A stretch of DNA of 64,000 bases, taken from positions 68,618 through 132,617 of the forward strand of contig JASEGB010000001.1 of NCBI GenBank assembly GCA_030018275.1, written 5' to 3'. The position numbers and the translations under genes were made by a program. This document shows, one piece after another, positions 1 through 15,012 of the stretch. Every line of letters starts with the position of its first letter. Position 1 is the stretch's first letter. Below the pieces are notes generated by a model, which ran no database searches, was not told where the DNA came from, and saw nothing but the letters and a program-made list of their open reading frames with translations. This DNA comes from Actinomycetota bacterium (GTDB lineage: Bacteria; Actinomycetota; Aquicultoria; Subteraquimicrobiales; Subteraquimicrobiaceae).

Positions 1-1924
1 AGACAAAAGCTTGAGAAAGCTTTAGGTACCAATATTTAACAGAAACCCACTCGGGAGGATCTACATGGAACCAAGCAAATCTATAGCCCAAAATGAAATA
101 CATTCCTCCGCCAAGGACACAAATGGATAATCCCAGAAGATTGTGGACGACCTCTGGGCTTGTGAGAAATGCATGGGTTTTAGGATCGTAAAGAAGTGGT
201 ATGGTTGATCTCAATCCCGTGGCATGAATATTGTACAGTATATGATATGGATGAGATGCTGGGTCAAAACCGAAGTTTGCGAGAGCCGGCCCGATGAACT
301 TTTCCAACAACCAGTTGGGCTTAAGTCCTATGAATAAAATTGTTGCGGATATGGCAAGCATGGCTATCCGCATCGATAGGGGTTCGGGCTTAACATCCTT
401 GAACTTCTCCGGTCTTTTCCATATAAACACAAATGACCACATCTTCATGTTGGAGCAGAATGTACCGAATGCCGTGAGGACGAAGAATACTTCGGCTATT
501 TTGAGCAGAATATCCGGTCGATGAAAAACTGAATAATGCGCCGAGTGATCAAAAGCTTCCAATATCGCATGATGGAGTATGGTCTTGGAGGCGAATCCGT
601 TAAAGAGAGGTATTCCAGAGATGCCGCAGACGGCAATGAAGCATGCCAAAGCTGTGAAGGGCATATTTCTCCACATTCCACCCAGTTTGTACATATCCAG
701 TTCACGGGTCCTAAAGTATACGGCACCCACAGCCAAAAAGAGTCCCGCTTTAAACAGGGCGTGATTGACTATGTGATAGAGTCCCCCTGCGAGACCCATG
801 GCTCCATCCTTTCCCAGGTACGCAGCACATCCCAATCCCATCACAATGTAGCCCATTTGGGAGACGGAATGGTATGCAAGCATCCTCTTACAATTCGGAG
901 AAAGCAATGCGTTTACCACGCCAAAGAACATGGTGACGACGCCCACCCATATCAATCCGTAACCCAAGCTGGTGAGTATGGTCCAGCCGGCTCCATGAGC
1001 AGCCTGGGCAGCCTGAGTTGCGTGTGACGCGTGAGTGCTACTGTGTGCTGCCGTTGCAACCGGGGCAAATAGAGTATTTACGGTTCTCAAGATTCCATAG
1101 GCTCCCGCCTTTATCATCAAACCGGAGAGCAATGCAGAAGCGGGTGTTGGAGCTATGGGGTGAGCTTCAGGAAGCCAGACGTGGAGAAGGAATATACCAG
1201 CTTTGCTCCCAAAGCCCGCAATCATCATGATGGCCACCAGATATTTCAGATAACCGGGCAAGGTTTTCTCTATAAGTGAAGCCATGGGGACGATATCTAT
1301 CTTCCCAGCTCTTGCAGCCAGGATCATTATTCCCCCGATGAGAAGTAATCCTCCAATGACGGACATGAAAAGATACAATTTCCCAGCAGCCATGGCTTTT
1401 TCGTCTTCCTCGTGGATGACCAGGACATATGAGAAGATTGCCATGAGCTCAAAGAAGAGGAATAGGGAGAAGAAATCCTTGGTTAAAAGGACTCCGAGGT
1501 TTGCTCCCAAGGTGAGAAGGACAAAGAAAAAGTATCTCGTTTGGGCATGCTCAACGCTCATGTATGAAGTTGCATAGATACAGGAAAGAGCCCAAATGAA
1601 TGCAGTTATTGCGGCTATTAGCAGCCCAACGGCATCCACTCCGAAGTTTATTCCAAAACCAAGACCTGAAGGAAAAGGACATTCAATGCCCTTGTAAAAA
1701 TGTTCACCGATGTGGATGCCTTGGACCACTGGTTGATACATACAAAGGACGATGATAAAGGTCAAAATGGTGGTGGAGACAACAATGGCATTTCTAATCT
1801 TCGTCTTCGCATTGAAAATTGCCGCAAAAGTTGCTCCAATAAACGGAACGAGCACCGCAAGGAAAGGGAGAAAAGCTATGATGCTCACCTTAGGTGTTAC
1901 AGGTCCCAAAACTTCAAGATGCAT
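1..1924 (-). CDS. NuoL/MrpA-like proton-conducting antiporter subunit (partial, runs off left edge)
   Basis: The reading frame is open from an ATG at 1924, preceded by GGAGG seven to eight bases upstream, to base 1, giving at least 641 codons without a stop. The translation is a multi-span membrane protein of the complex I NuoL/M/N and MrpA/D family. It has the buried Glu of TM5 in the motif FFELMAIFSYVLVIHEE, the Lys of TM7 in GFGSKAGIFLLHVWLPEAH, the PTPASALLSG loop, and the second Lys helix in NHALFKAGLFL. These are the family's proton-path residues. A loop rich in His, Ala and Thr (around HSSTHASHATQAAQAAHG) sits between two helices. The length and long C-terminal part resemble NuoL or HyfB more than MrpD. 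It is probably the fifth antiporter subunit of the operon, although 331 bp separate it from the gene upstream. Confidence 0.85.
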   Translation of the reverse strand, partial: MHLEVLGPVTPKVSIIAFLPFLAVLVPFIGATFAAIFNAKTKIRNAIVVSTTILTFIIVLCMYQPVVQGIHIGEHFYKGIECPFPSGLGFGINFGVDAVGLLIAAITAFIWALSCIYATSYMSVEHAQTRYFFFVLLTLGANLGVLLTKDFFSLFLFFELMAIFSYVLVIHEEDEKAMAAGKLYLFMSVIGGLLLIGGIMILAARAGKIDIVPMASLIEKTLPGYLKYLVAIMMIAGFGSKAGIFLLHVWLPEAHPIAPTPASALLSGLMIKAGAYGILRTVNTLFAPVATAAHSSTHASHATQAAQAAHGAGWTILTSLGYGLIWVGVVTMFFGVVNALLSPNCKRMLAYHSVSQMGYIVMGLGCAAYLGKDGAMGLAGGLYHIVNHALFKAGLFLAVGAVYFRTRELDMYKLGGMWRNMPFTALACFIAVCGISGIPLFNGFASKTILHHAILEAFDHSAHYSVFHRPDILLKIAEVFFVLTAFGTFCSNMKMWSFVFIWKRPEKFKDVKPEPLSMRIAMLAISATILFIGLKPNWLLEKFIGPALANFGFDPASHPYHILYNIHATGLRSTIPLLYDPKTHAFLTSPEVVHNLLGLSICVLGGGMYFILGYRFAWFHVDPPEWVSVKYWYLKLSQAFV

Positions 1925-2255
1925 ATATTAACCTCCGATTTGCAAGATTTTGAGCCTGGGTCGCAATTCTTAAGTGTTCTCTATTTTAAACCATAGGAAA
2001 ATGTAAAAATCAAAGATCAAAAATCAAAATTACAGATCAAAATCCAAAAATATTTTGAGTTCCATGTTTCCTGTTTTCAAAGTCCGAAATCCAGATACCT
2101 CATTTAGACATCCTACAGACCTACAGAGGATATGCAGAACAGTTCCATAAGTATCTCCGTCGGACATAGGACTTGTCATTTTTCATTTTGAGTTTTAAAT
2201 TTTGAATTTGTAGCTCCTGGTTTTAGATTTATGAGCCACGTTAATGATTTTATAT
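1925..2255. repeat. AT-rich intergenic block with a degenerate interspersed repeat
   Basis: No gene is visible here. From about 2000 to 2060 the sequence is built of variants of AAATCAAA/AGATCAAAA. From about 2170 to 2230 it holds the complementary flavour (TCATTTTTCATTTTGAG, then TTTTAAATTTTGAATTTG). The two arms form a loose inverted repeat around a less biased core with short CCTACAGA repeats near 2110–2125. Both neighbours are antiporter genes on the same strand, so the block interrupts an operon. Repeats of this look occur between genes in many uncultured bacteria. I infer a non-autonomous repeat remnant. Confidence 0.5.
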
Positions 2256-3809
2256 TTAATGACCGAAGTAAATGTGAGCTAATGCTTTCGCCAAATTCAG
2301 TGGGAACTGAGGATAGATACCGAAGATTAAAGTACCCAGGGCCAGCACAAACATCGGAACAAGCATCAGCCAATTTGGATCAGCCCTCTCCACATGCGGC
2401 TTCTCGTGAGAATGCTCGTGAGCACCATGACCCTGCTCTTCCTCGGCGTGTTCTCCATGTTCGACTCCAAACCAGGCTCCGATGACGATCGGCCCGTAAT
2501 AAACGACATTAAGTAAGCTGCTCAAAAGAAGGAAGCCAACTACGGCTATCCCAGCTGCCCTGCTGATAATGCCCATCGATGCAGATTGTAAAGCCCCTTC
2601 AGCTAATATCCATTTACTGATGAACCCACAGAACGGCGGAAAACCGATCATCGAACAGGCAGCAAGGGTAAAGCAGATCATGGTCAGGGGCATGCGGAAG
2701 CCTATGCCCCTCAAATCCTTCAACTGCCTCAAACCAGTCTTGTATATCATTGCCCCAGCACACAGAAATAATGTCCCCTTCATCAAAGCGTGATTGAAGA
2801 TGTGCAAAACTCCTCCCGTTAAACCCAAGGACGACAAAAGAGCTACACCCGTGATCACGTAGCCAATTTGAGCGATGGAGGAGAATGCAAGAAGTCTCTT
2901 TATCTCCTTCTGAAGGATGGCACATCCGGAACCCAAAATCATGGTGATTATTCCCAAGATCAGTAAGAATTTGCCGGTGGCGGGATTCGCCAATACGGTT
3001 GGTCCGAAAACAGCATAAATCGTTCTGACAATCCCATAGGCTCCCGCCTTTATCATCACTCCGGAAAGAAGAGCAGAGGCGGGTGTTGGGGCAACGGGAT
3101 GAGCATCAGGGAGCCAAACGTGCACCGGAAACATACCCGCTTTGACGGCGAATCCAAAGATAAAACACCAAAAAATCCAGGTAAAATAGGGACTTTCCCT
3201 AAGAGGAGCCAGTCCAGCGCGAGAGAGTGTAGTCGTTCCGCAAACACCCTGTGTGGCTACGATAGCCAAAAATAAAAGAAGCCCTCCGACTATTCCCATA
3301 AATAAATATTTGAGACCAGCCCTCATGGCTTCGGTGGTTTCCTCGTGGATTACAAGCACATAGGAAAGAATGGCCATGAGTTCAAAGAAAATGTAGAGGC
3401 TGAATAGATTACCGGTGAATCCGATGCCCATCATTCCACATAAGGAAAGAAGGGAGAAAATATTGAATCTAGTCTTTGCATGCTCGGGTTTCATATATTC
3501 GATGGCATACAAAGAAGCCATGAACCATAGCAAAGAGGAGATAAAGCCCAAAAGGAAACCCAGAGAATCAACATATAAAGTTAAGACCACCGGAAGAAGC
3601 GAATAAAACCTCAATTCCACGATGTATCCCCTGGCGATTGCCGGATACATCAAGCACACCAGGAAAAATGTTATCCCGCAGATTATAGCCGTAAGGGTAC
3701 ATCCTCGCTCTTCAGAAACTTTCTTCGAGATATAGTAAACACCTATTGCTCCCAACGCGGGAGCTATGATCGCAAGTAAAGCAAATACACCCAATTCAAA
3801 TTCCCCCAA
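2256..3809 (-). CDS. MrpD/NuoM-like proton-conducting antiporter subunit, His-rich loop
   Basis: A 517-residue polytopic membrane protein of the NuoM/N–MrpD family. The key ion-path residues are present: Glu143 in NLFSLYIFFELMAILSY, Lys223 in FGFAVKAGMFPVHVWLPDAH, and the later Lys in NHALMKGTLFLCAG. The PTPASALLSG loop is intact. An unusual soluble loop at about residues 447–472 is dominated by His and Glu (GEHAEEEQGHGAHEHSHEK) and lies before the last helix. It is downstream of the His-rich small membrane protein and continues the series of antiporter paralogues. It probably pumps H+ or Na+ as one module of a larger complex. It could also be labelled NuoN-like, because assignment to MrpD, NuoM or NuoN is not possible from motifs alone. 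Confidence 0.88.
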   Translation of the reverse strand: MGEFELGVFALLAIIAPALGAIGVYYISKKVSEERGCTLTAIICGITFFLVCLMYPAIARGYIVELRFYSLLPVVLTLYVDSLGFLLGFISSLLWFMASLYAIEYMKPEHAKTRFNIFSLLSLCGMMGIGFTGNLFSLYIFFELMAILSYVLVIHEETTEAMRAGLKYLFMGIVGGLLLFLAIVATQGVCGTTTLSRAGLAPLRESPYFTWIFWCFIFGFAVKAGMFPVHVWLPDAHPVAPTPASALLSGVMIKAGAYGIVRTIYAVFGPTVLANPATGKFLLILGIITMILGSGCAILQKEIKRLLAFSSIAQIGYVITGVALLSSLGLTGGVLHIFNHALMKGTLFLCAGAMIYKTGLRQLKDLRGIGFRMPLTMICFTLAACSMIGFPPFCGFISKWILAEGALQSASMGIISRAAGIAVVGFLLLSSLLNVVYYGPIVIGAWFGVEHGEHAEEEQGHGAHEHSHEKPHVERADPNWLMLVPMFVLALGTLIFGIYPQFPLNLAKALAHIYFGH

Positions 3810-3832
3810 AATTTATCGATGGGATAATTCAT

Positions 3833-4399
3833 TCAATGATGTGCATGCGGCGAAGCGTGCTCATCGTGGGAAGCTATCCCCTTGTGAGCGGAAGCATGTC
3901 CTTCATGTGGGGGAACATGCTCTTCATGCTCTTCATGTTCCTCATGGCGCCCCAGAATCCCGTAAACGGTCACAAAGGCTCCCGCGAGGATCATGATACC
4001 GAATTTGAGAAAGCCCACAACTGATGGTTCATGATATGCATGCATTGATGGATGATAATTCAAAGCGTAACAAATAAGTATCAAGAAAGTTAAAATGTAA
4101 GCCAAAGTTAAACCTTCATGGTGAGACCTCCCACGGGTTCGAATCTTTCGAACATAGGAAGTACTTAGTCCGAAAATAACTAATAGGAACCCCCATTGGA
4201 GGAAATAAAGCAAAGGGGGACCATGATGCTCCTCGTGTTCTGCTTCATGTTCAGCTTCGTGTTTCCCCGTTTCATCTTCAGCATGAACCTCTTCATGAGG
4301 CTTTTCGTGCGTGGCGGGTTTTTCGGTGGCAAGGACGGGAACCGAAAAACTAATGATTAAAATGAAAATCAAACTTAGAATTAAAAGCCTTTTAATCAT
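3833..4399 (-). CDS. Histidine-rich membrane protein with signal peptide, unknown function
   Basis: A 188-residue protein that I do not recognise. It starts with a signal-peptide-like helix (KRLLILSLIFILIISFSVPVLA), followed by a His/Glu-rich stretch to about residue 60. Three hydrophobic helices follow, at about 65–82, 97–113 and 127–147, and the C-terminal tail is rich in His, Glu and Ala (HEEHEEHEEHVPPHEGH and on to HAHH). It is co-directional and tightly spaced between two antiporter subunits, so it probably belongs to the same complex. The two His-rich segments could bind Zn, Ni or another metal or buffer protons at the membrane surface. That is inference only. Confidence 0.7.
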   Translation of the reverse strand: MIKRLLILSLIFILIISFSVPVLATEKPATHEKPHEEVHAEDETGKHEAEHEAEHEEHHGPPLLYFLQWGFLLVIFGLSTSYVRKIRTRGRSHHEGLTLAYILTFLILICYALNYHPSMHAYHEPSVVGFLKFGIMILAGAFVTVYGILGRHEEHEEHEEHVPPHEGHASAHKGIASHDEHASPHAHH

Positions 4400-4444
4400 C
4401 TAATTTTTTATTTCCTCCTCATGTGACAGCATTCACTTCACATT

Positions 4445-5989
4445 TTACTTTAAAAGAAGCTTTACAGCAACCTTGGATAAGGGCAAAGCCAGCCAGTGTA
4501 TCATGGATCCAAAGCCGAGAATAACAACACACAATGTTCCAACAAATATGGGCAGGAGCATCGTCCAAGGGACGCTTCGTGTTTCGAATTGAATCCTTCT
4601 CTCCTCCACGTGGGTTTCCTCTCCCTTGGTATGAGCTTCTTCAAAAGCCTCCATTTCTTCCCTCGGTCTGGCAAAGAAAGCGGTGAAAACCACGGGTAGC
4701 AAATAGGCTGCGCAGAGCAGAGAACTAATGAGCAGAACCACAACGAAAATGGGTTTCCCCGCCTCGAATCCTCCCACACAAAGCATCCACTTACTTATAA
4801 ATCCCGCCAATGGTGGACATCCCATCATACCCAAGGATACTATAGCGAAGCAGGCCATGGTTATGGGGAGCACATAACCGATCCCTTGCATCTGACTTAT
4901 ATTCCTTTTTTTAACCCCTTTTATGATCACCCCAGAACAGAGGAATAAAGTCGACTTCATGAGGCCATGATTGGCGATGTGGACCATGCCTCCGATGAGG
5001 CTACTTGGTGTGAGAAGGATGGCTCCCAAAACGATATAAGACATCTGACCTATTGTGGAATAAGCGAGCCTACGTTTGAGATTATCTTGATCCAAAGCGA
5101 TGATGGAGGCAACGACTATCGTTGCCGCAGCGACATAGGCCAGAATCGTCCCAAATCCCAATCGCCTCAAAAGTTGAGTCCCAAAGACGTTATAAATCAC
5201 ACGCATAATCCCATAACAACCGGCGCAAACCAAAACACCGGAAAGTAATGCCGATGCGGGCGCGGGAGCGGCGGGGTGGGCGTCGGGGACCCATCCGTGG
5301 AGGGGCATGATCGCGGCCTTTACTCCGAAACCCACCACAAAAGTGGCGAATAAAATTGCTAAGGTATTATAACCATACTTCATGGAGAGTATCCCAGTTT
5401 TCACCAGAGTCTGAGAGTTGGCTAAATAAAAGGTCAAAACGATGCCCAATAATATAAAGGTTCCTCCGACCAGCACATAAATTATGTACTTTTTACCCGC
5501 CGCCAATGCTTCGGGGGTTTCTTCGTGGGCGATTATCGGATAGGAGGAGACCGAGAGCAATTCGTAGAATATGAAAAGCGTGAGTAGATTACCTGCAAAG
5601 CCAATGCCCATAGTCCAAGCTAGACAGAGTATTAAGAAGCCATAATATCTTGTGAGCGCATGTTCGCCTTTCATGTATCCCAAGGAAAAAACGGTGGCTA
5701 AAACCCAGAGTAAAGACGCGGTAAGGGCAAATACAAGGCTTAATCCATCCGCTCGGAAATGAAGCCAAATGCGAGGTGTCATGTGTAGAACATGGCATTT
5801 GTAAATGATTCCTTTTAGAGAACCGGGGAGCATCAAAAAACAGAGAAAAAAAGCGAATAACGTGGCAAAGACGGCAGCCCATTCCCTGAGCTTTTCCAAT
5901 CTATTCCCGAAAAAAAGAATGATAGCTGCGAATAAGAAAGGTACCACCACAGCGAAAGCTGGAATAGCCCAAGTCACCACCCTAGGCAT
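4445..5989 (-). CDS. MrpD/NuoM-like proton-conducting antiporter subunit
   Basis: A 514-residue polytopic membrane protein. Family residues are Glu143 in TLFIFYELLSVSSYPIIAHEE, Lys224 in VGFGVKAAIMPLHGWVPDAH, the PAPASALLSG loop and Lys in NHGLMKSTLFLCSG. A hydrophilic Glu-rich loop (REEMEAFEEAHTKGEE) precedes the last helix, in the place of the His-rich loop of the next paralogue. It is most similar by eye to the 493-residue paralogue upstream, with which it shares LFIFYE and HEETPEA, suggesting a relatively late duplication. It probably provides one ion-translocation channel of the Mrp/Mbh-like complex. Confidence 0.88.
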   Translation of the reverse strand: MPRVVTWAIPAFAVVVPFLFAAIILFFGNRLEKLREWAAVFATLFAFFLCFLMLPGSLKGIIYKCHVLHMTPRIWLHFRADGLSLVFALTASLLWVLATVFSLGYMKGEHALTRYYGFLILCLAWTMGIGFAGNLLTLFIFYELLSVSSYPIIAHEETPEALAAGKKYIIYVLVGGTFILLGIVLTFYLANSQTLVKTGILSMKYGYNTLAILFATFVVGFGVKAAIMPLHGWVPDAHPAAPAPASALLSGVLVCAGCYGIMRVIYNVFGTQLLRRLGFGTILAYVAAATIVVASIIALDQDNLKRRLAYSTIGQMSYIVLGAILLTPSSLIGGMVHIANHGLMKSTLFLCSGVIIKGVKKRNISQMQGIGYVLPITMACFAIVSLGMMGCPPLAGFISKWMLCVGGFEAGKPIFVVVLLISSLLCAAYLLPVVFTAFFARPREEMEAFEEAHTKGEETHVEERRIQFETRSVPWTMLLPIFVGTLCVVILGFGSMIHWLALPLSKVAVKLLLK

Positions 5990-6039
5990 GATCTCACCCC
6001 CAAGTTATCCAGACGGATCCGTAGGACGCACCAACTCCA

Positions 6040-7521
6040 TTACTTAAGAAAAATCCCAACCGCCGTTTCCGCTAAGGAGACGGGCATACCTGGAACCATG
6101 GACAATGTTCCCAAAGCAATCACATAGATGGCACATATGATGCAAGGATAAAGCAAGAGCCAATGAGCTTCATCCATCCTTATATCTCCATCGGGAGGAT
6201 TTTTGAAATAGGCTATGTAAATTATGGGTAACCAATAGGCAGCATTTAGTAAAGCGCTTACGAGCATGACGACCACGAAGATCGGGCTCCCCGCTTGAAG
6301 TGAGCCAAGGCACATGTACCATTTAGTTATAAATCCAGCGAAGAGTGGAATTCCTATGAAACCTAGGGAAGCGATGGAGAAGGTGGCCATAGTTATGGGC
6401 ATCTTGTGACCAATCCCCTCCATTTCACTTATATTCCTCTTGCCCGTTTTCCTCTCTATGGCTCCGGCCACGAAGAACAATGTTATCTTCTGAAAACCCT
6501 GATGAGCAAGGTGAATTATGCTCGCAAGAGCCGCAGAGGGAGCATGAAATGGGGCAAGGGATGCCCCTAAGATGATATATGACAATTGACTCACCGTTGA
6601 ATACGCCAACCTACGTTTGAGATTGTCCTGTAAAAGTGCCAATATTGATCCACAAATGATGGTCACCACAGCCACCCAAGCGAGAATGAGACCCACACCC
6701 ATTTGACTCACCAGAGCAACTCCAAAAACGTTGTAGATAACGCGCAGAACTCCAAATACACCAGCTTTAACAACGGCGACTGCATGAAGCAAAGCGCTGA
6801 CGGGGGTTGGAGCTACCATCGCCGTTGGCAACCAACTATGGAGGGGCATGATTGCGGATTTCACCCCGAAACCCACGATGAAGGTAGCAAACAGGAGATA
6901 CAAGATTTTCCCGTGCTTCTCTAGCGACAGTATTCCATTTTTGCTGAGTTCGGTGGTACCCGCAAGATAAAAGGTCATGACGATGGAAAGCAAGAGAAAG
7001 GCTCCCGCCGTAAGAGTATATACGAGATACTTTCTACCAGCCTTCATGGCTTCAGGAGTCTCCTCGTGAATTACCAGAGGATAAGTAGCTATGGTAAGCA
7101 TTTCATAGAAAATGAATAGGGTGAAAAGATTCCCAGAGAAGGCTATTCCAACGGTGGTTGAGACACATAGAGCAAAAAAACCGAAGAATCTCACCTTGGC
7201 ATGTTCTGGTTCCATATAGCCGATGGCATAGACCGTGGTAACTATCCAAAGTGTGGAAGTTACCAAGGCGAAGAACAAACCCATGGGATCGACTCTGAAA
7301 TAAACGGTTACCCCTGGAGCGAAGGGTAAAAGTTTTGTATAAAAGATCACCCCTCTCAAAGCCGCGGGCAGCATGGATAATACAATGACAAATTTTATTG
7401 CCGCGGCGCCCAAGCTCCAGAATCTTCTTAAGAAAGTATTTGCACCCGTTAAAAAGACTAAAAGGCTACATAACATCGACACCGTCGGAGCCAAGAGAGG
7501 CCTCCAAGAAGCGATTTCCAT
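6040..7521 (-). CDS. Antiporter subunit with NuoL/MrpA-type loop
   Basis: A 493-residue polytopic protein of the same superfamily with Glu140 in TLFIFYEML and Lys221 in VGFGVKSAIMPLHSWLPTAM. The loop after TM7 reads LPTAMVAPTPVSALLHAVAVVKAG. That is the NuoL/MrpA form (PTPVSALLHA) rather than the PDAHxxAPxPASALLSG form of its neighbours. The later Lys helix is also variant (AHQGFQKITLFFVAGA). It may therefore take the MrpA-like position in the complex, since no full-length MrpA with its C-terminal domain is encoded here. It follows the MrpD gene by 12 bp. Confidence 0.87.
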   Translation of the reverse strand: MEIASWRPLLAPTVSMLCSLLVFLTGANTFLRRFWSLGAAAIKFVIVLSMLPAALRGVIFYTKLLPFAPGVTVYFRVDPMGLFFALVTSTLWIVTTVYAIGYMEPEHAKVRFFGFFALCVSTTVGIAFSGNLFTLFIFYEMLTIATYPLVIHEETPEAMKAGRKYLVYTLTAGAFLLLSIVMTFYLAGTTELSKNGILSLEKHGKILYLLFATFIVGFGVKSAIMPLHSWLPTAMVAPTPVSALLHAVAVVKAGVFGVLRVIYNVFGVALVSQMGVGLILAWVAVVTIICGSILALLQDNLKRRLAYSTVSQLSYIILGASLAPFHAPSAALASIIHLAHQGFQKITLFFVAGAIERKTGKRNISEMEGIGHKMPITMATFSIASLGFIGIPLFAGFITKWYMCLGSLQAGSPIFVVVMLVSALLNAAYWLPIIYIAYFKNPPDGDIRMDEAHWLLLYPCIICAIYVIALGTLSMVPGMPVSLAETAVGIFLK

Positions 7522-7533
7522 TCTCGCAACCTC

Positions 7534-9021
7534 CTATCCTCGAAGTAAGGCGACGATCCAAGGTTTAACGTAACGCACTGGAAGATATGCTAAAGGCAAT
7601 CCCATCATCAGACAGACTAAAGCGAGTATCGCTACGGGTATGAGCATGGACAAAGGTGCCTCCTTTGCCTCTGCAATCTCTTTCCTCGTGGGCTCCCTGA
7701 AATAGGCGGCATTAACAATCTTGATATAGTAAGCAAATATGAATAGTGCTCCAAATAACAAAGCTGCGGCGAAGAGCGGTGCATTTGCTTCCATGGCTCC
7801 CAAAGCGATGAACCATTTACAGATGAATCCGTTGGTGGGAGGAATCCCCACGATGGAGATTATTCCTATGCTCATTGCCGCCATGGTGATGGGCATTCGT
7901 TTCGCTATACCTCTCAAATCGGTGAGCTTTCTGAAACCCGTTTGATGGATTAAAGCACCCGCGGTTAAGAATAGTGAAACCTTTATAATGGCATGATTAA
8001 ATATGTGTACTACGCCCCCACGCAAGCCATCGAAGGAGGCAAGACCTATACCCAAAACGATGTAGCCAATGTTTGATATGGTGGAATAAGCGAGCATCAT
8101 TTTGATATCGTCCTGGAAAAAGGCGAAAAATGCCCCCATGACGATGGAGATCGTCCCCAACCAGGCCAAGATCGTGGTGATGGGGGTGAGATCTAAAACT
8201 CCTCCGGTGAGTCTGTACACCTGGAAAACCCTCAATATCCCCAAAAGTCCCGTCTTCACCACCAATCCGGAAAGGATGGCACTGACGGGACATGGAGCAA
8301 TGGCATGGGCATCCGGTAACCAGATGTGGACGGGAAATAGAGCCGCCTTGACGCAGAAACCCACGATGAATAGGGCAAAGGCCACAGCGGCCACTCTCAA
8401 AGAATGGACTTCAGGAAGTCTCAATGTCATATCACGCATATTCAAAGTACCCGTTATAGAGTAAACGAAACCGATAGCTAGAAGAATGGAGAGTGAGGAG
8501 ACTGCCCCCACTAAAAGATATTTAAACGCCGCCATTTCTGCAATTTTCTCGCCACCGATGGCCACCAGGGCATAGGCACTCAGCGATAAAATCTCGGTGA
8601 ATACGAAGAGGTTAAACATATCTCCAGTGACCACGAAACCAAGCATCCCAGCGATATTCAGGAGAACAAGCGTATAATAAGTGGAGACTTTCTCCGCGGG
8701 GAGCTTTTTCTCTATATATCTTTTAGAAAATATGAGAATGAGAAGGCCTAGGACTGTAATTAGCAGAGAGCTGGCACTGAGCTCATCGAAGTATATCTCT
8801 ATACCAAAGGGTGGTTTCCATCCACCTAGGTAATAACTTACGGGTCCAATAAAATAGACCTTAGCGGTGAGATAGGCGGACATGATCATCGAAAGAAAAA
8901 TGGCAAAGGTGGCAAAGGGCATACATGCTTTCCTCCGCCACATGCCGATTATTGGATTTATTGCGGCAGCTGCCAAAGGAACTACCACTACTAAAATTGG
9001 GAAATGGTGTGCGATACCCAT
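7534..9021 (-). CDS. mrpD: Na+/H+ antiporter subunit D (MrpD/MbhH-like)
   Basis: A 495-residue polytopic protein, the most typical MrpD of the set. It has Glu143 in NLFVFTEILSLSAYALVA, Lys225 in VGFCVKAALFPVHIWLPDAH, the CPVSAILSGLVVKTG loop, and Lys in NHAIIKVSLFLTAGAL. It directly follows MrpC with 3 bp between them, which is the usual MrpC–MrpD (MbhG–MbhH) order. In Mrp and Mbh systems this subunit carries H+ in exchange for Na+. Confidence 0.92.
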   Translation of the reverse strand: MGIAHHFPILVVVVPLAAAAINPIIGMWRRKACMPFATFAIFLSMIMSAYLTAKVYFIGPVSYYLGGWKPPFGIEIYFDELSASSLLITVLGLLILIFSKRYIEKKLPAEKVSTYYTLVLLNIAGMLGFVVTGDMFNLFVFTEILSLSAYALVAIGGEKIAEMAAFKYLLVGAVSSLSILLAIGFVYSITGTLNMRDMTLRLPEVHSLRVAAVAFALFIVGFCVKAALFPVHIWLPDAHAIAPCPVSAILSGLVVKTGLLGILRVFQVYRLTGGVLDLTPITTILAWLGTISIVMGAFFAFFQDDIKMMLAYSTISNIGYIVLGIGLASFDGLRGGVVHIFNHAIIKVSLFLTAGALIHQTGFRKLTDLRGIAKRMPITMAAMSIGIISIVGIPPTNGFICKWFIALGAMEANAPLFAAALLFGALFIFAYYIKIVNAAYFREPTRKEIAEAKEAPLSMLIPVAILALVCLMMGLPLAYLPVRYVKPWIVALLRG

Positions 9022-9024
9022 TTT

Positions 9025-9390
9025 TTACTCCATTTTTTTAAGCTTATCCGCTTCAAGAGTTCCGCAATGTTCGTAGATTTTGATCATCAAGGATAAAGCC
9101 AAAGCAGTGGTGCTCACGGCAACCACGATTGCAGTTAGAATTAAAGCTTGAGGAAGAGGATTCACAAAGGGACCTTTGATCGTTCCCATCATAATCGGAG
9201 CTTTTCCTCCCCTCACGGCACCAAGGGAAATAAAAAACAAAAATACCGATGTCTCCATGATGTTTAAACCCATGAACTTCTTTATCAGATTAGACTTCAT
9301 GGTCACGGTGTATAGACCGATGAGAAAAAGGGTCATGGATACCACGTAATTGAAATTGGTTACGAGTTTTTGGAGAATTTGCAAGGTCAT
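9025..9390 (-). CDS. mrpC: Na+/H+ antiporter subunit C (MrpC/MbhG, NuoK-like)
   Basis: A 121-residue membrane protein with three helices in the MrpC/NuoK pattern. The motif GLNIMETSVFLFFISLGAV contains the conserved membrane Glu, and PLPQALILTAIVVAVSTTALAL is the typical third helix. Its start overlaps the end of the MrpB-like gene by 4 bp and it is followed at once by MrpD. It is a structural channel subunit next to MrpD in the membrane arm. Confidence 0.92.
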   Translation of the reverse strand: MTLQILQKLVTNFNYVVSMTLFLIGLYTVTMKSNLIKKFMGLNIMETSVFLFFISLGAVRGGKAPIMMGTIKGPFVNPLPQALILTAIVVAVSTTALALSLMIKIYEHCGTLEADKLKKME

Positions 9391-10139
9391 GCTCTCTCCT
9401 CCCTCTGCATCGAGAAAAATATGGACGTGAATATGGCGCCTCCACCGACTCCGATGCCTACCTCGAGCAAATCCAACATCACTTTCGCTAAGAAGTGCTG
9501 ATAATACGGTGATAGACCTGGGAGCATAAAGGACAGGAAATTGAGCCCGGAAAGCAATCCTATGAGTCCCACGATGAAAAAGGTAAACGGGGCTATGCCT
9601 TCAATGGAAACCCTTAAGCTTAGTGGAATCCTCCTCATACCAACCAGTAGACCGAATACTAAAGCGTAAATGATGAAAGCCGCTGCCATTATTGTCCCCC
9701 CTTGAAAACCGCCTCCAGGAGAAACGGTGCCAAAAGCTATCACATAAATCGCAAATAGCAGGATGAATGGAAAGATGATGCGGAGTATGGTGTAGACAAT
9801 CAAGCTCGATTTGACGGGGGAGACGTCCATCACGGAAAAACTGGTCTTCGCTTTCTCCCTCATGAGGAGAGCGAGCACGCCACAGAGGGCGGTAAATATC
9901 ACCGTTACCTCCCCCATGGTATCATATCCTCTATAGTTTAGGATGACAGCGGTAACGATATTTGGGCAAGCGGCCTCTTCCTTTCCCCTCTCAAGATAGC
10001 GTTTAGTAACTTCATAATCATTGGTGGGGTTCTTTAAGCTGCCCATAGGGGGTATGTCCACCACGGCCGAAAGCAACATCACCCAGAATACGAGCAAACA
10101 TATGACCATTAAAACCCATCTCATTGGGAACTTTCTCAT
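9387..10139 (-). CDS. mrpB: MbhE–MnhB fusion subunit (MrpB-like)
   Basis: A 250-residue protein joining two known modules. Residues of roughly 1–95 resemble the MbhE domain, with an N-terminal helix, an extracytoplasmic segment containing TAVILNYRGYDTMGEV, and a second helix. Roughly 110–250 is an MnhB/MrpB domain with GTVSPGGGFQGGTIMAAAF. In Mrp operons the first part is the C-terminal piece of MrpA. In Mbh operons it is a separate gene. Here it is fused to MrpB. It overlaps the downstream MrpC by 4 bp and the upstream MbhD-like gene by 4 bp. Confidence 0.9.
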   Translation of the reverse strand: MRKFPMRWVLMVICLLVFWVMLLSAVVDIPPMGSLKNPTNDYEVTKRYLERGKEEAACPNIVTAVILNYRGYDTMGEVTVIFTALCGVLALLMREKAKTSFSVMDVSPVKSSLIVYTILRIIFPFILLFAIYVIAFGTVSPGGGFQGGTIMAAAFIIYALVFGLLVGMRRIPLSLRVSIEGIAPFTFFIVGLIGLLSGLNFLSFMLPGLSPYYQHFLAKVMLDLLEVGIGVGGGAIFTSIFFSMQREERA

Positions 10140-10378
10140 TCTTCCCTCCGCGTGGTCTTGCTTATGGTCACAATGAACAAAACCGTAGTCAACCCGGCTC
10201 CCACGGCGGCTTCAGTCAGAGCGATATCCGGGGCACCAAGCTGTTGCCAAACTATGCACATGATGAGACTATATCCCGAGAAGATGAGCGCTGCCGCCAG
10301 TAAATCCTTCATGCGAACAACGGCCAACGCCGTGGCAATCAAGAATAGTAAAAGTAAAACGTCCAATCTCCAAATCAT
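10136..10378 (-). CDS. MbhD-like subunit (DUF4040)
   Basis: An 80-residue protein with three hydrophobic helices and the signature WQQLGAPDIALTEAAVGAGL, diagnostic of the MbhD/DUF4040 domain. In Bacillus-type Mrp this domain is part of MrpA; as a stand-alone gene it is the arrangement of Mbh hydrogenases and archaeal-type Mrp operons. It overlaps both neighbours by 4 bp, so translation is probably coupled. Confidence 0.9.
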   Translation of the reverse strand: MIWRLDVLLLLFLIATALAVVRMKDLLAAALIFSGYSLIMCIVWQQLGAPDIALTEAAVGAGLTTVLFIVTISKTTRREE

Positions 10379-10749
10379 TCCGCTTTTGCCTCCTTTTTCT
10401 CTTCAATTAAGGGAGGTGGTGCTACCTTCCTCCAAGGTTGAAGACCCCTTCTGAATGAGGCTCTGGCAATGGCGTGACCCATGGTCGGGCTGGATATCAA
10501 AACCAGAGCGAAAAGAACCAATATCTTAAGGGCATCAAAGGAAAATCTCTCGTATATTGCCAGTCCGAGCAAGATTGAGCACGCCCCCAAGGTGTCACAT
10601 TTGGTGGCGGCATGAGTTCGGCAGTAAAAATCGGGTAAGCGCAATATACCTGTGGTCCCAACGATAAAGAAGAATATTCCTATAACTGCAAAAATCATGG
10701 CGATTATGCGCGTGATTATCTCTATAATCTCAATCATGCTCCCAATCAC
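10375..10749 (-). CDS. mrpG: Na+/H+ antiporter subunit G (MrpG)
   Basis: A 124-residue membrane protein with three helices and the MrpG signature GTTGILRLPDFYCRTHAATKCDTLGA, of which LRLPDFYCRTHAA is the most conserved part. The C-terminus is a charged cytoplasmic tail rich in Lys and Glu. It overlaps MrpF upstream by 20 bp and the MbhD-like gene downstream by 4 bp. It is a small accessory subunit needed for complex assembly in studied Mrp systems. Confidence 0.92.
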   Translation of the reverse strand: MIGSMIEIIEIITRIIAMIFAVIGIFFFIVGTTGILRLPDFYCRTHAATKCDTLGACSILLGLAIYERFSFDALKILVLFALVLISSPTMGHAIARASFRRGLQPWRKVAPPPLIEEKKEAKAE

Positions 10750-11011
10750 CCCTTATCTTTCCAGTCTCCAGGTATCTTGCCGCTACGACGGTAATAATGA
10801 AGTTTAACAGACCATAAACCAGAGCCACATCCAAATACATCGCCTGACGGAATATATAGGCTATGAGTACCAAAATTACCAGGGTTTTAGTACCCACGAT
10901 GTTCACGGCGAGGATCCTATCGGGGACAGTTGGACCCCGAAATGCCCTGTACAGACAGAGAAAGGCATTGGCTATTAAAATTATTCCAACATATAAGTAA
11001 AACGTGCTCAC
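10730..11011 (-). CDS. mrpF: Na+/H+ antiporter subunit F (MrpF)
   Basis: A 93-residue membrane protein with three helices. Motifs RAFRGPTVPDRILAVN and YLDVALVYGLLNFI are the MrpF signature, including the conserved Asp residues in and near the helices. Its start overlaps the MrpE stop by 4 bp. It probably lines part of the ion path together with MrpG and MrpC. Confidence 0.92.
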   Translation of the reverse strand: MSTFYLYVGIILIANAFLCLYRAFRGPTVPDRILAVNIVGTKTLVILVLIAYIFRQAMYLDVALVYGLLNFIITVVAARYLETGKIRGDWEHD

Positions 11012-11499
11012 TTTTCTTTCTCCTTATATACCCCAATGACGTGCTCCTGAAGGGTCCAACCGAAGATGCTCTCGACATGTTCTTCAGCGAGGCAATGAAT
11101 GAAAAAGGTGTTATCCCGAATGTCAACGGTTAGCGTACCTGGGGTAAGCGTTATGGAATTAGCCATGGTGATTTGGGCAAGATGAGAGTCCAAGGGAAAT
11201 TCGAATCTTATGATTATGGGACTTATTGGCAATCTGGGATCGAGAACCCTCTCCGCCACATCGATGTTTGCTTTGATGATTTGGGTAATCAAATAGGGAA
11301 CGTAAAGTATAAAACGTCCAAGTTGCTTCCTTGACATCTTGATTGTCTCCATATGACCAGCTAATAATCCTCGGCAGAGAATGGCGACAAAGGTGGACAA
11401 AATAAGACCGATTATTAAAATGGCAACTTTGAAACTCGCCGTAAGAATGATCCAAAAAATCCACAGCGAAAAAGTTAAAATAATGGTCTTCTTATCCAT
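11008..11499 (-). CDS. mrpE: Na+/H+ antiporter subunit E (MrpE)
   Basis: A 163-residue protein with two to three N-terminal helices and a soluble C-terminal domain. The MrpE signature is visible in the amphipathic stretch YVPYLITQIIKANIDVAERVL and in ANSITLTPGTLTVDI. It is the first gene of the operon, with GAGG in front of the ATG. MrpE-F-G order followed by MbhD is the order of mbhA-B-C-D, so the operon is Mbh-like rather than Bacillus-like (mrpA first). Confidence 0.92.
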   Translation of the reverse strand: MDKKTIILTFSLWIFWIILTASFKVAILIIGLILSTFVAILCRGLLAGHMETIKMSRKQLGRFILYVPYLITQIIKANIDVAERVLDPRLPISPIIIRFEFPLDSHLAQITMANSITLTPGTLTVDIRDNTFFIHCLAEEHVESIFGWTLQEHVIGVYKEKEK

Positions 11500-11586: not shown

Positions 11587-12474
11587 TTAGTCCTCTCTAA
11601 CTTGCTCCTTAGGGACAGACTCGCGAGAATAAATGCAAACCCTATTTCTTCCAGACTCCTTAGCCGAATATAGTGCTTGATCCGCGTTAACAATTAATTC
11701 AGTATCATCGCCAGCATTGTAGGGATAAATGGCTACACCCGCACTTATAGTCTTTTTGACCCTGGGATTCTCCACGTCACCTTCGAATTCCTCTGCTTCT
11801 ACGGCTTTCCTTATCCGCTCAGCCACAATCCCCGCTTCTTTCGCCACGCCTGGTAGGAGCACTGCGAATTCTTCTCCTCCATATCTGGCCACGATATCTA
11901 TATCCCTCAGCCTTCTCCTAATGATCTTTGCGAGCCTGTTCAAAAGTTTGTTTCCTTTCACGTGTCCAAAGGTATCATTAAACTCCTTGAAATGATCGAT
12001 ATCTATCATGATCAAAGAAAGGGGCATTCCAAACCTATCAGCCCTTTTTACCTCCTCATTCAGTCGATCTATGAAATAGCTATAGTTATAAAGACCAGTT
12101 AATTTATCATGAATGGAGAGCCGTTCCAACAAAGCTTGCTGTGCCTTTTGTTTTGCAGATAAAAAGCCAAATATTATCCCCGATACAAAGAAGATGAAAG
12201 TACCAAGGGATATCTCGTAAATAAGATTGACCAAATTTCCAGTGATTAAACCCAGAGAAACTTCCCTATATAGCCATAAAGCCATCAACCCAATGCTCAA
12301 TAATCCAGTGACTATAGCTCCTACCACATCGAAGGTGAGAGCGGCGATGAAAATGGGGATAATGTAGAGATACCAATATAACTGTAACTCGCGCGTGTAA
12401 TAAATGAGCAAAGATACAAAGGCCAAACTGATGAAAACCAAAAGCAAATATCTCAAGCGAATTGCCGGTCTCAT
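11587..12474 (-). CDS. Membrane-bound diguanylate cyclase (GGDEF domain)
   Basis: A 295-residue protein. Residues 1–105 form about four membrane helices, followed by a short linker and a GGDEF domain from about 118 to 285. The active-site signature is GGEEF at 199–203, one of the two catalytically active forms. An inhibitory I-site RDID lies at 190–193, at the usual spacing. The product should make cyclic di-GMP at the membrane and be feedback-inhibited. No EAL domain or sensory domain apart from the helices is seen. It is a single gene ahead of the antiporter operon. The pilB paralogues in the same window carry N-terminal domains that can bind c-di-GMP in related proteins. Confidence 0.93.
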   Translation of the reverse strand: MRPAIRLRYLLLVFISLAFVSLLIYYTRELQLYWYLYIIPIFIAALTFDVVGAIVTGLLSIGLMALWLYREVSLGLITGNLVNLIYEISLGTFIFFVSGIIFGFLSAKQKAQQALLERLSIHDKLTGLYNYSYFIDRLNEEVKRADRFGMPLSLIMIDIDHFKEFNDTFGHVKGNKLLNRLAKIIRRRLRDIDIVARYGGEEFAVLLPGVAKEAGIVAERIRKAVEAEEFEGDVENPRVKKTISAGVAIYPYNAGDDTELIVNADQALYSAKESGRNRVCIYSRESVPKEQVRED

Positions 12475-13807: not shown

Positions 13808-15012
13808 CTAAGCAGCCTTCTCCATTTCCTCTTTTAAAATATAATCTCGATCCTCTTTTAACATCTTAAAAATAACTTTTATTAGCTGTCTGGCAAGGCA
13901 ACGTAAAGTATGGTTATGCTCTTTTCCTTCAGCTCGTTTTTTAGCATAGTAGGTCATGGATTCTGGAACGAATCGAATTGTAGAGCCTGCAATTGCAATC
14001 ATGGTTGCTTTACATATTTTATTAGCTTTGTAAACAACTTTTGTTGTTTTCTTTTTACCAGAATCATCATCTATACAGGCTACACCACAGTAGATGGCAA
14101 GTTGCCTTTCATTTTTAAACCTGTCGATATTACCAATTTCCCCAACAAATCTGCTTGAGAGTTTTGTTCCTATCCCAGGGATATTTTTAATCGCTTAGCT
14201 TCTGGACTCTTTTCTCCCATCTCTTTAAGCTTCTTATCCACTATTTCAATCTCGTCTTTTAATTCCAAAATGCGCCGCGCATATGACAATATAATCATTT
14301 TGTAAATATCTACCAGTTCTTTAACATATTTTATATTGCGCAGGTCTTCCAATATTAAAGAAGCTTGTTTTTCCCCAATCATTTTTATTTTCAGTAAAGA
14401 CCTAAGAGTAAGTTTTTTATAGCTCGAAAAATCAGGGTATTTTGCCAAAAGCCTTAACATCTTCTTGCTATCTATATCGCCAAGCTCTAATATATCAGGA
14501 CATACTTCCAATAGCTTCTTTCTAAGCCGGTTTTGTAGCCTTGTCTTCTCATCTATCAAAGTTTGTTGATGCCGGGACAATATTTTTAACTTCTCATTGA
14601 TTCCTTTTATCTTCTCTAATGGAATGAGTGCCTTCTCATCTTCAGCGTTTAAATAATCTCTTAATTTCAGCATCTTTGCTAACATTTTTGCGTCTCGCCT
14701 GTCGCTTCGCCATTCTGCTCCAAATACATCCCGAAACCGTTTTAATTTTAGGTTATCTACATTGTACAAAGTAAATCCCTGCTCTATGAGTATCCGGTCA
14801 AATGGGGCTCCGTATCCATTCTTTCCTTCAATCCCAAAAGATACTATCCCTTCTTCTCTTTCCTCGATTTCTCTGAACTCTTTGACAGCTTTATCAAATT
14901 CGCTGAGTTTGTGGGCTATCTTCTTATCGTACAATACTTTTTCTTCATCGTTCATAACAATTATGTGATGATGCTTACTGCCAACGTCTACTCCTCCGGA
15001 TAATCTTTTCAC
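13808..15012 (-). pseudogene. IS110-family transposase with an internal frameshift
   Basis: The N-terminal 280 residues (15012–14170) form a DEDD/RuvC-like domain starting VDVGSKHHHIIVMNDEEKV, followed by a coiled-coil segment. The frame breaks near an A5 run (plus-strand T5 at 14184–14188). Translation resumes in the -1 frame with IPGIGTKLSSRFVGEIG and GVACIDDDSGKK, and ends at 13808. These are the conserved helix-hairpin-helix and transposase_20 parts, including the expected Ser in the AGSTIRF region. Joined, the protein would be about 400 residues, normal for IS110. A single indel inactivates it, unless translation shifts frame. Confidence 0.85.

Follow-up and report, generated by a model that had tools for sequence, protein, structure and literature searches.

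A Group 3 Mrp-Type Operon with Five Antiporter-Like Subunits, No Redox Arm and a Conserved GGDEF Neighbor in a Deep-Subsurface Actinomycetota Bacterium

Introduction

The usual Mrp-type machine contains two channel subunits, whereas the locus analyzed here encodes five of them in one operon with no electron-transfer part. Such a locus raises the question of whether it represents the membrane part of a pump driven by redox reactions, a set of subunits shared among several complexes, or an enlarged antiporter working on its own. In more general terms, the field is asking whether the antiporter-like subunits of complex I and related complexes each pump on their own, and how energy travels along the array. 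The stretch of DNA under analysis, hereafter the window (64,000 nucleotides; G000:C1:68618-132617), belongs to the 1.49 Mb, 99% complete genome of Ca. Subteraquimicrobium, a deep-subsurface bacterium of the Actinomycetota, and one of the encoded channel subunits (D1) is 95% identical to that of a relative, Ca. Subteraquimicrobium carltonvillense (Actinomycetota, class Ca. Aquicultoria). The reading that we favor, with a probability of about 0.62, is that the operon encodes one stand-alone, redox-free group 3 Mrp-type multi-subunit cation/proton antiporter with an Mbh-like gene order and an enlarged channel array.

Organization of the Operon

The five-channel operon occupies positions 1-11499 of the window on the minus strand, and its open reading frames encode MrpE-F-G-MbhD-MbhE/F-MrpC, followed by the antiporter-like subunits D1-D5 and a small membrane protein. 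Specifically, the first part comprises MrpE/MbhA (11008..11499, PF01899 at 6e-32), MrpF/MbhB (10730..11011, NCBIfam), MrpG/MbhC (10375..10749, TIGR01300 above the cut-off), MbhD, which represents part of the MrpA C-terminal domain (10136..10378, PF13244 at 4.3e-22), a fusion of MbhE with MbhF/MrpB (9387..10139, PF20501 and PF04039, and alignment) and the NuoK-like MrpC/MbhG (9025..9390, PF00420 at 4.5e-26). The second part, on the same strand, consists of D1 (495 aa, 7534..9021, PF00361 at 1e-64), D2 (493 aa, 6040..7521, 2.1e-58), D3 (514 aa, 4445..5989, 6.3e-63), the membrane protein x188 (188 aa, 3833..4399), D4 (517 aa, 2256..3809, 1.5e-65) and the core of D5 (2..1924, 2.8e-47), which exits the window at 641 aa. 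The Pfam families MNHE, MbhD, MbhE + MnhB and Oxidored_q2 are also matched and, as open reading frames, Pfam and NCBIfam agree, the Mbh/Mrp-type membrane module and the gene order recognized by the first-pass annotation, which had been made from the DNA letters, are borne out. With PF00361 matches at 2.8e-47 to 1.5e-65, D1-D5 are the only PF00361 proteins retrieved in a whole-genome search, and an operon with five such proteins is far beyond chance. The genes are closely packed, the first six overlapping one another and those from MrpC to D4 being separated by gaps of 3-50 bp.

The small protein x188 is a His/Glu-rich two-helix membrane protein with orthologues in relatives, located in class-mates between D3 and D5, and a Pfam search gave no confident family for it. 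In one relative (L126:8074-11718), D3 and its x188 neighbor are present as two identical tandem copies, due either to a real duplication or to an assembly artefact.

Taken as a whole, the operon has the gene content of a group 3 Mrp system, as MrpB, C, D, E, F and G are present with no full-length MrpA, whose domains are split here into MbhD, MbhE/F and separate D subunits. The closest known organization is that of the P. furiosus mrpEFGBB'CD and haloarchaeal EFG-DUF4040-MnhB-C-D-D-D operons, which have the same gene order and likewise lack a redox module, the haloarchaeal one encoding three MrpD/PF00361-type subunits. For the stand-alone group 3 Mrp system of P. furiosus, exchange of Na+ with H+ has been described, and several mrpD copies are possible in group 3 operons (PMC8415708). 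The present operon differs from these systems in its five subunits, in a D3 without the TM8 Lys, in the replacement of MrpF Asp38 by Asn, in the giant tail of D5 and in its GGDEF neighbor. The range of one to three channels per known complex, on which the first-pass annotation had relied, is outdated, given the several mrpD copies of group 3 operons and the five antiporter-like subunits of Complex_I_3 in Ca. Manganitrophaceae (PMC9040806).

Search for a Redox Partner

A first possibility is that the operon supplies the membrane arm to a redox-driven pump, namely an Mbh-like hydrogenase or a complex I variant whose catalytic subunits lie elsewhere or are of an unrecognized type, and that the five channels confer a high ion-to-electron ratio. 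In favor of this possibility, the gene order is that of MbhA-H, and the families are those of the P. furiosus MBH membrane module. Moreover, class-mates do carry D2-, D4- and D5-type subunits after nuoABCDHIJKMN, and Ca. Manganitrophaceae have a complex I with five pumps (PMC9040806). Complex_I_3 of the latter and the 2M complex I of Nitrospira share with our operon the extra antiporter-like subunits, up to five, and a lengthened lateral helix (PMC9040806), but both are redox-driven, whereas no redox arm is found here. Similarly, MbhI-N, i.e., the hydrogenase and the NuoH/NuoD-type genes of P. furiosus MBH, have no counterpart in the operon.

The leftward extension of the contig, where hydrogenase, ferredoxin or formate dehydrogenase subunits had been envisaged as partners, contains no gene of these three kinds and no NuoB/C/D/H/I core. 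Nor do the next genes form a plain nuo operon, the ordinary outcome against which the first-pass annotation had set its own reading; as judged from sequence, D5 is followed by a DUF6812 gene, two small ribbon-helix-like proteins, a phosphoribosyltransferase, an aminotransferase and other housekeeping genes. At the genome level, neither PF00346 (49-kDa/group-4 hydrogenase subunit) nor PF00146 (NuoH) was found in the 99% complete genome, with searches that succeed in control genomes, the PF00346 search matching 11 out of 16 genomes. PF00346 is also missing from two relatives with the operon (L015 and L016), and in the Coriobacteriia-type genomes with the operon it is located elsewhere in the genome. 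A group 4 [NiFe] hydrogenase of the Mbh kind was rejected on the absence of the large subunit and of the NuoH-type anchor from the genome, and complex I on the absence of its core beside the operon and of both families. Both [NiFe] hydrogenases that the genome does encode fall outside group 4, one being of a cytochrome-b-linked type and the other a group 3-like enzyme with a flavin/NAD reductase-like subunit next to it. Because PF00346 and PF00146 are absent and no redox gene adjoins the operon, the proposal of an unusually high ion-to-electron ratio has no support here, and a redox-driven pump appears very unlikely.

As a separate observation, a hydrogenase large subunit (L138:1387-2883; G000:C5:52068-53468) carries an in-frame TGA right after RSFDP near the C terminus, as in [NiFeSe] hydrogenases.

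Channel Subunits D1-D4

In an alignment with E. coli NuoL/M/N, the TM5 Glu and TM7 Lys are present in all five subunits, as had been claimed for them, together with the TM12 Lys. The conservation of channel residues does not extend to the TM8 Lys, which in D3 is replaced by C255, with Cys, Ala or Asn in every orthologue aligned; a Ser occupies the position of the NuoL/MrpA His, so that, among the five subunits, D3 alone has neither His nor Lys at the TM8 positions concerned. D2 carries an MrpA-like His246 and Lys252 in TM8, and a Gln at the position of NuoL H338. The loss in D3, the His of D2 and the tail of D5 argue for the specialization by position that the first-pass annotation had put forward, but not for the NuoL-type nature that it had assigned to the 493-residue copy (D2) from its PTPVSALLHA loop, since a grouping of D2 with NuoL/MrpA/HyfD was rejected (p-AU 0.0165). 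In the tree, D1 groups with Mrp MrpD, i.e., it belongs to the true MrpD/MbhH lineage, and D2-D5 form a single clade (SH-aLRT 98) in which D3 is sister to the D2 type.

D4 groups with full support (100) with subunits located behind nuoABCDHIJKMN in class-mates and with one from L121, where the array consists of NuoN, a subunit of the D2/D3 type, D4, a D5 of giant size and an x188. D4 occurs in all three genomes of the genus that were searched and is absent from the four-copy operons. On the basis of these nuo-associated kin and of its restriction to the genus, D4 was probably recruited from a complex I-type operon, namely the enlarged complex I of class-mates. The latter (L128-L131: nuoABCDHIJKMN + D4 + D2 + D5-like) shares with our operon the D4- and D2-type subunits and a total of five antiporter-like subunits, but possesses a complex I core and, in L129 and L131, a distal subunit of a different lineage. 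The same loci encode a NuoI-type protein of ~660 aa fused to a pyridine-nucleotide oxidoreductase domain, with no NuoEFG seen; possibly, they specify a five-pump complex I with unusual electron input.

The same architecture recurs in class-mates and in Coriobacteriia-type MAGs, with an antiporter-like copy number of three, four or five according to lineage. This variation, along with the divergence of the D subunits in key residues, would be expected if several alternative complexes shared MrpB/C/E-G and MbhD/E, each using one or two D subunits depending on conditions. However, the D1-D2-D3-D5 order is fixed across families, and the four- and five-copy operons encode an oversized D5 tail, as if it spanned a long array. 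On this evidence alternative complexes are unlikely, and we infer a single assembled complex, bearing in mind that five subunits in one operon are not proof of all five in one complex.

The Distal Subunit D5 and Its Tail

D5 extends beyond the left edge of the window (contig C1, L007:16801-17904), across a 96-N scaffold gap and into 26-aa repeats, a helical tail and a terminal TM helix. Hydropathy and models of orthologues agree on this architecture of core, helical tail and terminal TM, and the lateral helix after the core with its TM anchor is the arrangement of the distal subunit NuoL/MrpA, the lateral helix of MrpA having been described (PMC9568556). Accordingly, the best fold match of the L016 D5 model (pLDDT 75) is MrpA (7qru_A, 2.4e-25). 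As for descent, the free tree places D5 with D2-D4, and a single clade of D5 with NuoL/MrpA/HyfD was not rejected (p-AU 0.458). A tail model from another relative (L020) shows a 61-residue helix, then a helical bundle with blocks at pLDDT 84-94, then a TM helix, the end parts being of low confidence; the tail fold has no significant match in the PDB or among viral models.

In the tail of our genome, two exact 78-bp units (26 aa each) flank the scaffold gap, a repeat missed by Tandem Repeats Finder, probably owing to the Ns. In L126, D5 contains an unrelated 78-bp unit in 2.7 exact copies, and in L034 it contains a 75-bp repeat; repeat amphipathicity was nominally significant in two of the three. 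Among close relatives, the first helical stretch measures 31 (L119), 57 (G018) and 83 aa (our genome, assuming an empty gap), that is, it grows in 26-aa steps, with G018 and our genome both having five modules. The five-pump complex I of Ca. Manganitrophaceae has a 26-aa lateral-helix insertion, and that of Nitrospira 2M is of similar length (PMC9040806); the agreement with the D5 repeat is suggestive. Compared with these complexes, D5 has a tail of 240-420 aa that in two lineages contains 26-aa units repeated exactly in tandem. By a rough estimate, the tail measures 68-217 aa where the operon has three copies, 247-417 aa where it has four and ~165-171 aa in the five-copy nuo type. These values do not uphold a rule by which tail length equals module number, the comparison being confounded by phylogeny.

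D4 and D5 are separated by 331 bp (window 1925-2255) of short A+T-rich repeat-like sequence with 48 matches in the genome; the corresponding gap in L015 is only ~35 bp. Because of this spacer and of the split at the scaffold gap, co-expression of D5 with the rest of the operon is not certain.

The Cation Side and the Transported Ion

The nearest PDB entries of MrpF are MbsB and MbhB (6u8y_B and 6cfw_B). In B. pseudofirmus MrpF, the sodium-loading residue Asp38 binds sodium in simulations and is functionally important by mutagenesis (PMC9568556). In our protein the equivalent residue is Asn, as in 18 of the 19 members of the clade, and 54 of the 67 other MrpF proteins have Asp; therefore, the ion or the path by which it enters may be different. 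On the other hand, the equivalents of MrpA Glu780, of MrpB Phe41 and of the MrpB Asp121-type acid are kept in the MbhE + MbhF/MrpB fusion. In the alignment, an Mbh-type Glu located at a distance of one turn takes the place of MrpA Glu687. In addition, the genome encodes Rnf/Nqr-type subunits and a V/A-type ATP synthase whose c subunit has the E. hirae Na+ V-ATPase as its only PDB match, with TQ, Q and VETY aligning with the Na+ ligands of the latter. Rnf and a Na+ V-type ATPase have been described for related Actinobacteria (PMC7325909).

Considering the kept acids and Phe41, the Rnf-type subunits and the Na+-type ATP synthase ligands, the most likely role of the operon would be the coupling of H+ and Na+ gradients, with the MrpF Asn as the main doubt. 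That Asn, the GGDEF neighbor and the Ca2+ exchange reported for one Mrp system (PMC5703873) leave some room for a different function, either with another substrate (K+, Ca2+ or protons alone) or as a valve, gated by c-di-GMP, that relieves the proton gradient. The remaining sodium-path acids with Phe41 and the ATP synthase ligands speak against this alternative, which we regard as improbable.

The GGDEF Protein and Other Flanking Genes

A gene for a membrane GGDEF protein (295 aa, 11587..12474, minus strand, PF00990 at 2.1e-46) lies 87 bp upstream of mrpE, with intact GGEEF and RxxD motifs, as in class-mates. Such a gene adjoins every Actinomycetota four- or five-copy operon with enough flank, overlapping mrpE by 4 bp in all eight Coriobacteriia-type loci, and comes after D5 in L120 and L124, where the operon has three copies. 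It was not found beside ~60 other Mrp operons examined, and our genome contains seven GGDEF matches. In the Coriobacteriia-type neighbors, the GGDEF motif and the metal-binding Asp are lost and RxxD is kept, which suggests a change from a probable synthase to a probable sensor in one lineage and hints at cyclic di-GMP control of the complex. As RxxD is common in GGDEF domains, a receptor role of the degenerate neighbors is suggested and not proven.

Two other flanking genes may be mentioned. A DUF6812 protein (90 aa, L007:16441-16713) is encoded either past D5 or in the interval separating mrpE from the GGDEF gene, and adjoins the operon in most Aquicultoria-type genomes; it has no solved relative, and no paper on it was found in the literature searched. 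Upstream of the GGDEF gene, window positions 14170-15012 contain an ORF resembling an IS110-type transposase.

Concluding Remarks

The locus is a group 3 Mrp-type operon in which the antiporter-like subunits have risen in number to five; it has no redox arm and shows position-specific residue losses and a conserved GGDEF link. In the stand-alone antiporter that we favor, MrpE/F/G, MbhD, MbhE/F and MrpC would form the cation-exchange end, D1 would be the proximal MrpD, D2-D4 would lengthen the membrane arm outwards and D5 would cap it, with its lateral helix running back along the array; this order and the stoichiometry of the array are proposals. Proton flow through the extra channels would drive cation exchange, most likely of Na+, and link the H+ and Na+ gradients, while D3, without the TM8 Lys, may serve as a structural or gating link instead of a full pump. 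The GGDEF neighbor probably tunes the complex or its expression.

Operons with several MrpD copies and five-pump complex I are already known, whereas the present combination was not found in the literature searched, nor was any report of second-messenger control of an Mrp-type antiporter. A broader proposal, which we advance tentatively, is that of a c-di-GMP-controlled, redox-free antiporter that reached five modules through recruitment of a complex I subunit, with a distal lateral helix growing in 26-residue steps and one internal module without the central lysine acting as a coupling link. The operon lends itself to testing how machines of this kind expand and are regulated. In particular, a redox-free series of three, four and five modules, one of which consistently lacks the TM8 lysine, represents a natural comparison set, and the GGDEF neighbor suggests that an Mrp-type antiporter may be under second-messenger control.
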